From assembly GCF_037023755.1 (NCBI RefSeq), contig NZ_CP146100.1, forward strand, positions 2,668,501-2,732,500: a stretch of DNA of 64,000 bases, in the 5' to 3' direction. This document shows, in pieces, positions 48,537-51,922 of the stretch. The stretch comes from Saccharopolyspora sp. SCSIO 74807 (GTDB taxonomy: Bacteria > Actinomycetota > Actinomycetes > Mycobacteriales > Pseudonocardiaceae). A program made the translations under genes and the position numbers. Below the pieces are notes generated by a model. That model searched no databases, was not told where the DNA came from, and was given only the letters and a program-made list of their open reading frames with translations. Positions within the stretch are counted from its first letter, which is position 1. Every line of letters begins with the position of its first letter.

Positions 48537-48665
48537 TCGGGCGCAGTCGTCCCGGAGCGGCCGCAGCACGGAGAAGGCGGCGAACTCCCAGCTCAGCAAC
48601 GGTGCGCGAAACGCGCCGCGAGGGTTGCCGCCGGTCGGTCGCGCGGTTCTGCGAGGATGCCCGGC

Positions 48666-50750
48666 ATGGCCGATCAACCGCGACTCCTGGAAGGTCTGGA
48701 TCCGGAGCAGCGGGCAGCGGTCACCGCACCACGCGGCCCGGTCTGCGTGCTGGCGGGCGCGGGCACCGGCAAGACCCGCACGATCACGCACCGCATCGCG
48801 TACCTGGTGCAGCGCGGCCTGGTCGTGCCGCAGCAGGTGCTCGCCGTGACGTTCACCGCCCGCGCCGCAGGTGAGATGCGCACCCGGTTGCGCGGGCTCG
48901 GCGCCGCAGGAGTGCAGGCGCAGACGTTCCACGCGGCCGCGTTCCGGCAGTTGCGCTACTTCTGGCCGCGGGTGCACGACACCCAGGTTTGGCCGCTGGT
49001 GGACAACAAGTTCCGCCTGGTCGTGCAGGCCGCGAACCGGGTCGGCCTGTCCACCGAGAAGGAGTCGGTGCGCGACCTGGCAAGTGAGATCGAATGGTCC
49101 AAGGCGGGCCTGGTCGGACCGGACGGCTACGCCACCGCGGCCGCGCGGGCCGGGCGGGACGTGCCGGTCGCGCCGCACCAGCTGGCCAAGGTCTTCGCGG
49201 CCTACGAGCAGCTCAAGAACGAAGCCCGGATGCTGGACTTCGACGACCTGCTGCTGCACACCGCGGCGATCCTGGAGGAGCACCCGGACGTCGCCGAGGA
49301 GTTCCGCTCCCGGTACCGCTCGTTCGTCGTGGACGAGTACCAGGACGTGAACCCGTTGCAGCAGCGCGTGCTGGACGGGTGGCTGGGTCCGCGCGACGAC
49401 CTGACCGTGGTCGGTGACGCGAACCAGACGATCTACTCCTTCGCCGGAGCGTCCCCGAAGTGGCTGGTGGGCTTCCCGAAGCGGTTCCCGGAAGCGACCG
49501 TGGTCCGCCTGGAACGCGACTACCGCTCCACTCCGCAGGTGGTCTCGCTGGCGAACAGCGTGATCGGCGCGGCCCGCGAACGCCCCGCCGGAACGCGGCT
49601 CAGGCTCGTCGGCCAGCGCGCGGACGGCCCGGAACCGGAGTTCGCCGAGTACGACCACGAGCCCGCGGAAGCCGAAGCGCTCGCCCGCAGGATCGCCGAG
49701 CTGGCGGGCCGCGGCGTGGCGCTGTCCGAGATCGCCATCCTGTTCCGCGTCAACGCGCAGTCCGAGGTCTACGAGAAGGCGCTGTCCGACGCCGAGATCC
49801 CGTACCAGGTCCGCGGCGGTGAGCGGTTCTTCGCCCGCAACGAGGTGCGCCAGGCGATGGTCGCGCTGCGCACCGCCGAGAACCGGTCCGACGCTGGTGC
49901 GGACCTGCCCGCCGCGGTGCGCTCGGTGCTCGGCGAGGTCGGGTTGACCGAGGAGCCCCCGCCGGGCGGTTCGGCCCGCGAGCGCTGGGAATCGTTGATC
50001 TCGCTGGTCGAATTGGCCGAGGAGCTGGCTTCGTCGGTTCCCGATGCGGGCCTGCCGCGCTACGTCGCCGAGCTGGAGGCCCGCGCGGAGTCGCAGCACC
50101 CGCCGACCGTCGAAGGCGTCACGCTCGCCTCGCTGCACGCAGCGAAGGGCTTGGAGTGGGATGCGGTGTTCCTGGCCGGGCTGGTCGAGGGCACGCTGCC
50201 GATCCAGCACGCCGAGGACGACTCCGCGATCGAGGAGGAGCGGCGGCTGTTCTACGTCGGCGTCACCCGCGCCCGCGAGCACCTGCACCTGTCCTGGGCG
50301 CTGGCCCGCGCCGCGGACGGCCGCCGCTACCGGCGCCGGAGCCGGTTCCTGTACGGCCAGGTCCCGGACGGGCATCCGGCGGCGCTGCCCGCGAAGACCC
50401 GTTCGGCGGCGGCCGCCGCGCCGCGCAACCGGTCCCAGCCGCGCTGCCGCAGCTGCACGGCGGTGCTGGTGAGCACGATGGACATCAAGCTCGGCCGCTG
50501 CGCGGACTGCCCGTCCGATGTGGACGAGACCTTGCTGGAGCGGCTGCGCGCCTGGCGCGGCGAACGCGCCCGGCAGCTGAGCGTGCCCGCCTACGTCGTG
50601 TTCACCGACGCGACGCTGACCGCGATCGCCGAGCAGCGCCCGCCGGACGAGGCCGCGCTGGTGGCGATCTCCGGCATCGGAGCGACCAAGGTCCGCAAGT
50701 TCGGCGCCGACGTGCTCGCCCTGGTGCAGGGCGAGCACACCCGAAGCTGA
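48666..50750 (+). CDS. uvrD2: UvrD2-type helicase
   Basis: Walker A is AGAGTGKT at about residues 30-37 and motif II is [11 protein letters not shown]. Motif V/VI elements [18 protein letters not shown] and [15 protein letters not shown] are intact. After the motor come a tetracysteine zinc module (CRSCTAV with [10 protein letters not shown]) and an HRDC domain ([19 protein letters not shown]-like region), the layout of mycobacterial UvrD2. It is a 3'-5' superfamily 1 helicase in repair and is essential in M. tuberculosis. I use ATG 48666; the frame begins at ATG 48657, too near the GAGG site. Confidence 0.94.
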
Positions 50751-50811
50751 TCCGCCCGAGCGCGCTCCGGTTGCGCTGAACAGCATTTTTTCCGCGATCG
50801 GCGGAACTTCG

Positions 50812-50850
50812 AAAAATCGGTTGCGGGCCGCTTCGCGGGCCCCATACTCT
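50812..50850 (+). promoter_or_regulatory. Candidate whiB7 promoter with AT-rich WhiB7 site
   Basis: AAAAAT (50812-50817) lies 3 bases before TTGCGG (-35, 50821-50826) and 18 bases separate this from TACTCT (-10, 50845-50850). WhiB7 activates its own promoter and others through an AT-rich sequence immediately upstream of -35. Confidence 0.7.
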
Positions 50851-50909
50851 GCATATCGCGCAGCCGAGGTGTCCGGAACCCGGCGTCGACCCGGAAGGAG
50901 GTGGCAGTG

Positions 50910-51101
50910 ATGAAGAGCTTGCAGACGCTCGGTACCCCTGGCCACCCCATGTCCGGGGGTACCGCGCTGTTCCAGGAATTTCCGGCCTGGCTCGGCTATG
51001 ACCGCGTTCGCACCCTGCCGCGTCTGATCGACGTGGCACTGCCGGTTGCCGACCGTTCCGTGCCGGTTCGCATGGAGTCGTTCCTCGATCCACTGATCTA
51101 G
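50910..51101 (+). CDS. 63-aa leader ORF upstream of whiB7
   Basis: ATG at 50910 has a full Shine-Dalgarno AAGGAGG (50895-50901) at 8-base spacing, one of the strongest in the window. The 63-residue peptide begins MKSLQTLGTPGHPMSGG and ends FLDPLI, with a TAG stop only 4 bases before a small hairpin with T5 and 25 bases before a strong terminator. Position, strength and the terminator arrangement indicate a translated attenuator leader. In mycobacteria a short uORF plus terminator controls whiB7 read-through when ribosomes stall on antibiotics. The peptide may also be a small protein in its own right. Confidence 0.75.
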   Translation: MKSLQTLGTPGHPMSGGTALFQEFPAWLGYDRVRTLPRLIDVALPVADRSVPVRMESFLDPLI

Positions 51102-51105
51102 GACC

Positions 51106-51122
51106 GCCCTCCAGGGCTTTTT
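51106..51122 (+). terminator. Small hairpin with T5 after the leader ORF
   Basis: GCCCT (51106-51110) and AGGGC (51113-51117) pair with a 2-base loop, followed by TTTTT (51118-51122). The stem is short; it may pause RNA polymerase just past the leader stop. Confidence 0.5.
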
Positions 51123-51126
51123 CGAA

Positions 51127-51164
51127 GGCCGCGGACCCGCACCAGCCGGGTCCGCGGCCTTTTT
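51127..51164 (+). terminator. Strong terminator in the whiB7 leader
   Basis: Arms GGCCGCGGACCCG (51127-51139) and CGGGTCCGCGGCC (51147-51159) with a 7-base loop, then T5 (51160-51164). It lies 94 bases before the whiB7 ATG and should stop most transcription unless antiterminated. Confidence 0.92.
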
Positions 51165-51257
51165 GTGCGCACCCACCTCGAAGCAAATGCCGATGTTCTG
51201 GGGAATTCCCCACCGTCCGCGCGGGCAGCCGCACTGCCCGGGCAGGTAGGAGGAAAG

Positions 51258-51692
51258 ATGTTCAGCACGAGCGTCCCGATATGCAGCGGGACGGACGGCG
51301 AAGGCGGTGGCGCCATCGGCGCGCTGCTCGACGCCAGCGGGCAGGCCGAGCAGGTGCCCTGCCGTCGCGACCCCGACCTGTGGTTCGCCGAGGCCCCCGC
51401 GGAGCTGGAGCGGGCCAAGGCGCTGTGCGCGGACTGCCCGATCAAGCAGCCCTGCTTGGAGGGCGCGTTGTCCCGGGGCGAGCCCTGGGGCGTGTGGGGC
51501 GGGGAGATCTTCGAGCGCGGCGCGGTCGTCGCGCGCAAGCGACCCCGCGGCCGCCCCCGCAAGAACGCCGCCGAGCCGGCGCGGCGATCGGTTTCCGCGC
51601 AGCAATCCTCCGGGAACCGGACCGCAGATCAGCAGCAGGCCGCACCGGAGACTTCCGGCGCGCAGCGGGACGAACAGGAGCAGGCGGCATGA
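51258..51692 (+). CDS. whiB7: WhiB7 transcriptional activator
   Basis: The iron-sulfur ligands are Cys35, 57, 60 and 66 (VPCRRD and CADCPIKQPC). GVWGG at residues 78-82 is the conserved turn that contacts SigA. The C-terminal AT-hook RGRPRK at 97-102 identifies it as WhiB7 rather than another WhiB. The protein induces intrinsic antibiotic-resistance genes in actinobacteria. ATG at 51258 is preceded by AGGAGGAAA. A leader with a 63-aa ORF and terminators lies upstream, and the downstream gene starts at the overlapping ATGA. The Gln/Ser-rich tail beyond residue 105 is longer than in mycobacteria. Confidence 0.97.
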   Translation: MFSTSVPICSGTDGEGGGAIGALLDASGQAEQVPCRRDPDLWFAEAPAELERAKALCADCPIKQPCLEGALSRGEPWGVWGGEIFERGAVVARKRPRGRPRKNAAEPARRSVSAQQSSGNRTADQQQAAPETSGAQRDEQEQAA

Positions 51693-51922
51693 ACCCCCAC
51701 GACGCACTCACCGGATCCCACCGAGCCATCACCCACTCGAAAGAAGCGATCACGATGCTCATTCCAGAAGAACTGGCGAGATCCCGAAAACACGACCTCC
51801 TGCGGGAAGCGCGGCAGGCCCGGATGATCCGCGCGTGCACCGCGGGGCGCTGGTGGCGCAAGTTGGCGCGGTTCGCGCAGAAACGCGCGGACCGCGCACG
51901 ACAACGCGCGGCTTGGCCGTAA
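51689..51922 (+). CDS. Small basic protein coupled to whiB7
   Basis: ATG at 51689 overlaps the whiB7 stop (ATGA), giving a 77-aa protein; an alternative ATG at 51755 would give 55 aa. The C-terminal half is highly basic and helical (ARSRKHDLLREARQARMIR, RKLARFAQKRADRARQ). I recognise no family. The 4-base overlap suggests it is translated with whiB7 whenever the attenuator is open. It could bind nucleic acid, but this is not shown. Codon usage is like the neighbours. Confidence 0.6.
   Translation: MNPHDALTGSHRAITHSKEAITMLIPEELARSRKHDLLREARQARMIRACTAGRWWRKLARFAQKRADRARQRAAWP

Follow-up and report, generated by a model that had tools for sequence, protein, structure and literature searches.

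The whiB7 locus and its leader frame

The window, i.e. the whole stretch of 64,000 nucleotides that was analysed, originates from the 6.69 Mb genome of a Saccharopolyspora strain of the Pseudonocardiaceae. On its forward strand it carries, in this order, a uvrD2-like gene, a WhiB7-type promoter, a leader with an upstream open reading frame (uORF), a strong terminator and whiB7. Among the named BLAST loci the nearest are two from Saccharopolyspora, with 81-83% over about 1 kb within the uvrD2 end, and a uvrD2-like end lies upstream in 179 of 196 loci of a first pass. The features are as follows, with the basis of each in brackets:

48657..50750, + strand: uvrD2-like helicase gene, upstream neighbour (open reading frame; Pfam UvrD-helicase 5e-57, HRDC 2.2e-21)
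50812..50848, + strand: promoter, with WhiB7/WblC box AAAAAT (50812-50817), -35-like TTGCGG (50821-50826) and -10-like CATACT (50843-50848)
50890..50957, + strand: hairpin at the ribosome binding site (RBS) of the uORF, CCCGG 50890-50894 with CCGGG 50953-50957 and GGTGGC 50900-50905 with GCCACC 50941-50946 (fold, covariation)
50895..50901, + strand: Shine-Dalgarno sequence (SD) of the uORF, AAGGAGG (sequence)
50910..51101, + strand: leader uORF of 63 codons, from ATG 50910 to TAG 51099-51101 (sequence; frame kept in relatives)
50931..50963, + strand: hairpin GGTACCCCTGG/CCGGGGGTACC enclosing the anti-SD (fold; seen in some near relatives)
51003..51011, + strand: codons 32-34, R32-V33-R34, an arrest-type motif R/K-X-R/K (sequence; enrichment in relatives)
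51060..51077, + strand: 5' strands of the antiterminator, GTGC 51060-51063, GGTTCGC 51065-51071 and TGGAG 51073-51077 (fold, covariation)
51082..51103, + strand: stop-codon hairpin nested in the antiterminator (top covarying window pair)
51105..51124, + strand: CTCCA 51109-51113, the inner 3' strand of the antiterminator, and GGCTTT 51115-51120, which pairs with AAGGCC; together the region first noted as a "T5 hairpin" (MFE)
51125..51164, + strand: Rho-independent terminator and T run, with a 5' arm (51125-51137) common to the antiterminator (fold)
51258..51692, + strand: whiB7, 144 amino acids, ATG 51258 (EPWGVWGG turn, RGRP AT-hook, Pfam, PDB match)

The assignment of the downstream gene as whiB7, made initially from the letters of the window, is borne out by the EPWGVWGG and RGRP motifs, by a Pfam WhiB match of 53.5 bits (cut-off 23.6) and by the best solved-structure match, 7kif (E 1.6e-30), a WhiB7 that we take to be the M. 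tuberculosis protein; other WhiB proteins matched at 1e-7 or weaker. The AT_hook score of 17.0 bits is slightly below the cut-off of 17.4. No Rfam family reached its gathering score within 50500-51700, the best being BcKCsr2 with 23.8 bits against 40. Between the terminator and the SD of whiB7, at 51200-51211, the window contains a palindrome, GGGGAATTCCCC, which is partly kept in the loci L011 and L013. In L014, from the same genus (genome G003), the whiB7 frame is apparently broken, with leader, uORF and terminator present, which is either an error or a real loss.

For the comparison with relatives, whiB7 was searched at E 1e-25, with matches in 198 of the 200 genomes searched from the family and 169 of the 197 from the class. 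A total of 259 loci was fetched (L009-L267, some genomes twice before dereplication), of which eight had no WhiB7 motif. The layout of uORF, terminator and whiB7 was present as a complete leader in 234 of the remaining 251, while 17 failed the fixed leader thresholds, and dereplication at 75% leader identity removed 75 of the 234, which left 159 loci. The family loci referred to below are the 57 dereplicated loci of the family search; the other 102 still include some named Pseudonocardiaceae. Two hold-outs were also used. The first comprised 60 loci, two of them without the WhiB7 motif and 26 of the other 58 too similar, which gave 32 independent loci. The second was decided on after the result of the first, with 20 of its 32 places hand-picked for genus spread; one locus failed and similarity excluded 21 of the other 31, which left ten independent Pseudonocardiaceae and 42 independent loci in the pooled hold-outs. 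Covariation was assessed with an alignment-free permutation test, which compares the best helix per locus formed with its own partner and with the partners of other loci, a control that leaves some shared ancestry in the z values.

In the promoter, AAAAAT is separated by the three bases CGG from TTGCGG, which is followed by a spacer of 16 bases to CATACT. The WblC box is given in extracts of the literature as GAAAWY, 3 nt upstream of the -35 element (PMC7157823), and the AAAAAT of the window agrees with it by eye at five of six positions. An A/T run with TTG[CAG] precedes the uORF in 118 of the 159 loci as opposed to 9.1 in shuffled upstream sequences, and in 53 of the 57 family-search loci, so that the AT-rich box seen initially three bases before TTGCGG belongs to a conserved signature.

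The 63-codon frame with its full AAGGAGG was likewise confirmed, and in-frame GTG codons at 50901 and 50907 are possible alternative starts. The initial annotation regarded this uORF as much longer than typical, which holds in relation to erm and trp leaders, but not among whiB7 leaders: the uORF has 37-181 codons in the 159 loci and 55-112 in the family loci, with a median of 78 in both, and a length of 63 codons is therefore ordinary. Its stop codon is found 8-34 nt (median 23) before the terminator in the 159 loci, where the thresholds allowed -5 to 60.

Conservation of the leader frame among close relatives had been named beforehand as decisive for the attenuator reading, and the frame is kept: the indels between 47 close pairs have a length divisible by three in 55 of 90 cases within the uORF versus 24 of 161 in the flanks. 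The peptide, which had been suggested to be a stable product, appears weakly constrained, with a pN/pS of 0.72 over 21 independent close pairs as opposed to 0.14 for the uvrD2 end. A stable, functional peptide would be in keeping with the long frame, the good SD and the frame-preserving indels; this pN/pS, the wide range of lengths and the lack of any Pfam or NCBIfam family matching the peptide speak against it, and given the weak constraint we consider such a product very improbable. Changes of both kinds, synonymous and nonsynonymous, are fewest in the last 18 codons (pS 0.067 versus 0.135 in the middle of the uORF), which fits the expectation for a constraint on the RNA.

Terminator, antiterminator and stop-codon hairpin

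The strong terminator described initially between uORF and whiB7 is reproduced by folding: for 51125-51161, followed by the T run, a dG of -33.1 is predicted (z -6.3, reached by 0 of 200 shuffles), and of the 196 first-pass loci, 184 contain its core GGCC[GA]CGG[AG]. The smaller hairpin reported four bases after the stop codon, GCCC-TCCA-GGGC followed by T5, is present as well (dG -6.8, z -2.5, 7 of 200 shuffles), but it is better read as part of the antiterminator, whose strands CTCCA and GGCTTT it contains in the MFE fold. As a second terminator it was rejected, since its strands are used by the antiterminator and since by eye it is kept in L010 of the same species and not in L011-L014 of the same genus.

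In the fold of 51060-51146 (dG -40.3, z -3.75, 0 of 200 shuffles as low), GTGC, GGTTCGC and TGGAG pair with the 5' part of the terminator and with CTCCA, and the stop-codon hairpin is nested inside. GGCTTT pairs with AAGGCC in the same fold, so that the 5' arm of the terminator is taken up. The window pairs GGTTCGC with GCGGACC, including one U-G pair, and its outer helix taken alone is no better than shuffles (426 of 2000).

The covariation of the antiterminator has a z of 8.3 in the 159 loci and 5.3 in the family loci, with sham windows 60 and 90 nt upstream at -0.6 to 1.6 (-0.6 and 0.0 in the 159 loci), and in the pooled hold-outs the z is 4.0 (0 of 5000 permutations; sham 1.8). An unbiased scan of 327 window pairs placed the stop-codon hairpin first (z 12.8), followed by the inner antiterminator (9.3), the RBS hairpin (6.8), the outer antiterminator (6.5), the RBS hairpin again (4.8) and the terminator (4.3 and 4.2). 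The matching of the strands can be followed at single positions: in the family loci, GTCCG stands at the uORF end of 29 of the 36 loci whose terminator reads CGGAC and of 1 of the 18 whose terminator reads CGGAA, 17 of these 18 having TTCCG (Fisher 1e-7). The split weakens when all loci are taken (38 of 52 versus 14 of 63). Exchange of a strand with that of the nearest relative had no significant effect on the antiterminator (p 0.14), probably because near relatives share both strands.

Alignment-based methods gave a mixed picture. With RNAalifold, neither family alignment yielded a predicted pair, for which reason the pairs of named structures were counted on MAFFT alignments and the alignment-free permutation was used instead. 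The percentage paired and the covariation score of both named structures were above all 500 shuffles and all slid versions, the latter an advantage that a structure derived from a single row tends to have in any case. Two of the five measures per alignment, double-change pairs (54 and 58 of 500) and pair types (29 and 139 of 500), were little or not beyond shuffles. The stop-codon hairpin (helix 4) is paired in 77.1% of the cells of the family alignment and the inner antiterminator, in the geometry of the window, in 40.6%.

The dependence on the ribosome was modelled with a ribosome edge 16 nt ahead of the first base of the P-site codon and an assumed start site at 50855. With the 3' end of the transcript at 51146, the outer and inner antiterminator helices have predicted probabilities of 1.00 and 0.95 for a P site at codons 1, 20, 30, 40, 44 and 46, falling to 0.33 and 0.61 at codon 10; the outer helix is no longer whole at codon 48 and the inner one at codon 52. 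Once the whole terminator is present, it wins at equilibrium (1.00) at all 15 ribosome positions modelled, so antitermination would have to be kinetic.

Considering the computed parts, their conservation, the reading frame and the covarying structures, the locus is very probably a whiB7/wblC transcription attenuator controlled by the position of the ribosome. From these we infer the start site, ribosome positions, kinetics and drug response in the following sequence of events. RNA polymerase would start at the WhiB7-boosted promoter, and a prompt pioneer ribosome would run through the uORF to its stop codon, where it would cover the stop-codon hairpin and the CTCCA strand, break the antiterminator and allow the terminator to form, leaving whiB7 off. 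If the ribosome stalls before about codon 46, or does not initiate, GGTTCGC and TGGAG could pair with the nascent 5' arm of the terminator, and read-through into whiB7 would let WhiB7 boost its own promoter. The initial suggestion that ribosome stalling prevents the terminator is thereby supported by computation, as the covarying antiterminator joins the 3' end of the uORF to the terminator 5' arm.

A strong terminator between uvrD2 and whiB7 might also simply end the uvrD2 transcript, with whiB7 being read from a promoter downstream of it. A generic sigma-70 scan of 50400-51800, which needs 9 of 12 matches, flagged no promoter; this is weak evidence against a downstream promoter, as the scan missed the upstream one too. 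The WhiB7 box, the conserved uORF and the covarying antiterminator all lie upstream of the terminator, however, and make a plain uvrD2 terminator extremely improbable.

Two observations concern the antiterminator strands in other taxa. The uORFs of many loci outside the family search (e.g. L198, L226, L227, L235, L237, L242 and L247) end in (A)WSPPV or similar, codons that seem to form the inner antiterminator strand, so that the peptide motif probably reflects an RNA constraint. In the Micromonosporaceae-type loci L142, L146, L157, L177, L181 and L182, the antiterminator is apparently extended by CCTCGAGG at the uORF end and just 5' of the terminator; the uORFs of L177, L181 and L182 end in PRGRPV.

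The hairpin at the ribosome binding site of the uORF

The region around the SD of the uORF pairs with codons ~7-22 of the same uORF. In the window, the start codon lies in the loop of the hairpin, whose 5' arm covers the spacer and the 3' part of the SD. The fold of 50888-50959 has a dG of -32.9 (z -2.49), a value reached by 2 of 200 shuffles; for the inner helix by itself, 430 of 2000 shuffles do as well. The covariation of this helix amounts to z 13.3 in the 159 loci, 7.3 in the family loci and 10.3 in the other 102, with sham windows at 0.8 and 1.1 downstream and -3.6 upstream, and was found again in the pooled hold-outs (z 7.0, 0 of 5000; shams -0.0 and 2.5). Swapping with the nearest relative lowers the pairing score (p 3e-4). 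The hairpin is thus well supported as a structure. The number of helices that span the SD core (51 of 137) was obtained with an unsuitable criterion and is disregarded here. Shuffling of synonymous codons gave a weak signal for an N-terminal hairpin, with a mean z of -0.20 for codons 3-24 and -0.35 for codons 0-30. Outside the RBS hairpin, a further pair of leader windows, -52..-36 and +80..+96 from the uORF start, covaries with z 4.1.

At the start of whiB7 itself, the same test gave z -3.2 in the 137 of 159 loci with a usable start, which is avoidance. Masking by early codons of the ermC type was therefore not found at the SD of whiB7; the masked RBS is that of the uORF. Among 86 helices of 7 bp or more, the anti-SD occurs in all three frames (31, 30 and 25), which indicates that the RNA and not the peptide is conserved.

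As to its role, the RBS hairpin would most likely act as a time gate, in which the site is closed unless a ribosome binds before codons 11-13 are transcribed, so that slow initiation would also be counted as stress. The modelled pairing of the SD increases from 0.47 to 0.78 when the anti-SD leaves the polymerase, drops to 0.53-0.59 with a further hairpin and is 0.70 at the longest transcript. This further hairpin, GGTACCCCTGG/CCGGGGGTACC, may reopen the uORF RBS according to the model; its covariation is weak, with z 2.4 for the family loci and -1.9 for the remaining 102.

Hairpin 1:2 of the trp leaders is a pause hairpin for RNA polymerase, and the 5' hairpin could in the same way let the ribosome catch up instead of gating initiation. 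It would form once the polymerase has moved some 30-60 nt beyond the start codon, where synchronisation makes sense, and the three frames of the anti-SD, which point to a structure being kept rather than a peptide, suit a pause hairpin too. A hairpin that served for pausing alone would not, however, need to include the spacer and part of the SD in its 5' arm, as this one does, and whiB7's own start, the other start tested, shows avoidance. We regard a pausing role as a possibility to be taken seriously, short of a probable one.

The R/K-X-R/K motif and comparison with known attenuators

For the uORF as a sensor of drugs, six patterns were tried: R/K-X-R/K, A/S/T content, PP, PP/PG, two adjacent basic residues and D/E-P. 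R/K-X-R/K is of interest since ketolides predominantly stall at this motif, macrolides having a broader specificity, according to extracts of PMC8298421. Before the last 16 codons, it occurs in 117 of the 159 uORFs with 64.8 expected from shuffles within each peptide (z 9.0), and in 42 of the 57 family loci with 27.6 expected. Other spacings gave z -2.3 to 1.6 and other reading frames 0.9, shuffling within blocks of 20 residues only left z 8.2, and with one locus per GTDB family the motif was present in 20 of 29 as opposed to 8.4 expected (0 of 2000). Exactly one copy is found in 101 uORFs with 47.5 expected. This presence count (at least one motif per uORF) was chosen after the plain count had been seen, which was 136 with 86.3 expected, and for which the two other frames gave z 2.4 and 1.6. 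The motif is also enriched in the last eight codons (54 versus 24.7), an excess that probably stems from RNA pairing and was excluded when presence was counted. Proline pairs are rare, with 10 against 40.5 expected.

As the motif had been picked after looking at the data, the hold-outs were run. The first, planned beforehand, contained it in 16 of 32 uORFs with 12.3 expected (93 of 1000, p 0.09), the second in 10 of 10 with 5.5 expected (2 of 1000), and both together in 26 of 42 with 17.6 expected (0 of 1000); proline pairs numbered 1 versus 7.7 in the hold-outs (2 of 1000). The initial suggestion that the leader might encode specificity for certain drugs is partially supported by this excess. 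On the basis of the sequences, R-V-R at codons 32-34 is a candidate stalling site for ketolides and macrolides, and a drug-arrest motif seems likely in Pseudonocardiaceae and tentative elsewhere.

Taken together with the RBS hairpin, this leads to a tentative proposal, which we put forward as possible rather than probable: the whiB7 leaders of the class may be sensors with two gates, an initiation gate at the RBS in series with an elongation gate formed by the stop-codon hairpin and the antiterminator, with the uORF tuned as a detector by usually one R/K-X-R/K and few proline pairs, which would stall the ribosome without drug. If true, this would explain how one leader responds to initiation inhibitors, elongation inhibitors and starvation.

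The simpler alternative is that only the known minimal attenuator operates and that the RBS hairpin and the motif arise incidentally from shared ancestry and G+C-rich sequence. The published model, as far as extracts of PMC10727445 and PMC11550727 show it, needs nothing further, and the basic residues of the motif are not conserved beyond the level of other basic residues (0.81 versus 0.78, p 0.51), with 48 motifs kept and 22 lost across 50 pairs. The first hold-out, at 93 of 1000, also leaves room for this explanation. Even the uvrD2 ends, copies of one unrelated protein, exceed shuffles at the spacing of the motif (285 versus 222.0, z 5.3), but they peak at the next spacing (z 23.1), whereas the motif of the uORFs is specific to spacing and frame and persists with one locus per family and in the pooled hold-outs. 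The z values of the RBS helix, 13.3 and, in the pooled hold-outs, 7.0 with most shams near zero, likewise speak against such an incidental origin, and we judge the minimal explanation somewhat unlikely.

In trp and his leaders, the position of the ribosome selects between two RNA folds, and erm leaders encode drug-dependent arrest peptides. The leader described here resembles them in that the ribosome position would select the fold, and differs in its long uORF and in stall codons that are only candidates. For whiB7/wblC, the experimental source on uORF attenuation in Streptomyces and Mycobacterium is reportedly the 2022 study by Lee, Lee and Roe. Extracts of later papers describe whiB7 genes as typically preceded by long leaders with a uORF and a terminator, both overlapped by an anti-terminator (PMC10727445), an account shared by PMC11550727, PMC9618640 and PMC13393426, and report uORF, terminator and attenuation of whiB7 in two mycobacteria (PMC4128351). 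The locus is an ordinary member of these attenuators, with uORF, Rho-independent terminator, overlapping anti-terminator, autoregulated promoter and whiB7 downstream, in another genus, one of the Pseudonocardiaceae, unlike those of Streptomyces and Mycobacterium. Beyond the descriptions in these extracts, the comparison identifies the antiterminator strands, which covary, and adds two features with different degrees of support, an RBS hairpin and an arrest-type motif. Neither an RBS hairpin nor an arrest motif is mentioned in the extracts of the whiB7/wblC leader and uORF literature, which is no proof of absence, as these extracts do not cover the primary study by Lee et al.

Two other systems share elements with the leader, as far as extracts of the respective papers describe them. 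In toiL-topAI of E. coli, one uORF answers several classes of ribosome drugs through stalls at different codons; toiL unmasks a downstream RBS and Rho-dependent termination follows repression, whereas here the terminator is intrinsic and the RBS masked is that of the uORF itself (PMC12121999). The are5sc/tiaA leaders of S. coelicolor switch, as here, between terminator and anti-terminator by stalling on a uORF, and the anti-terminator hairpins there overlap with the ribosome binding sites of the uORFs, which sets a precedent for structure at a uORF RBS; unlike here, these uORFs have 3-9 codons, stall at the start codon and have no long coding sensor (PMC12421871). Whether antibiotics stall ribosomes within the whiB7 uORF had not been tested according to an extract of a 2025 paper (PMC12121999). 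With the pairing strands identified, together with candidate codons for stalling and a second conserved structure at the start of the uORF, this question can be put to toeprint and termination assays. Its importance comes from the role of whiB7, which governs the intrinsic resistance of actinobacteria to many ribosome drugs.

Some uORFs differ in composition. Those of L106 (Mycobacterium palustre), seen whole, and of L180, L183, L185 and L187 from the same order, seen by their ends, are apparently alanine-rich, and in L106 and L180 R/K-X-R/K is absent before the last 16 codons. Alanine-rich uORFs would fit the response of mycobacterial whiB7 to alanine starvation that Poulton et al. are said to have described in 2024.
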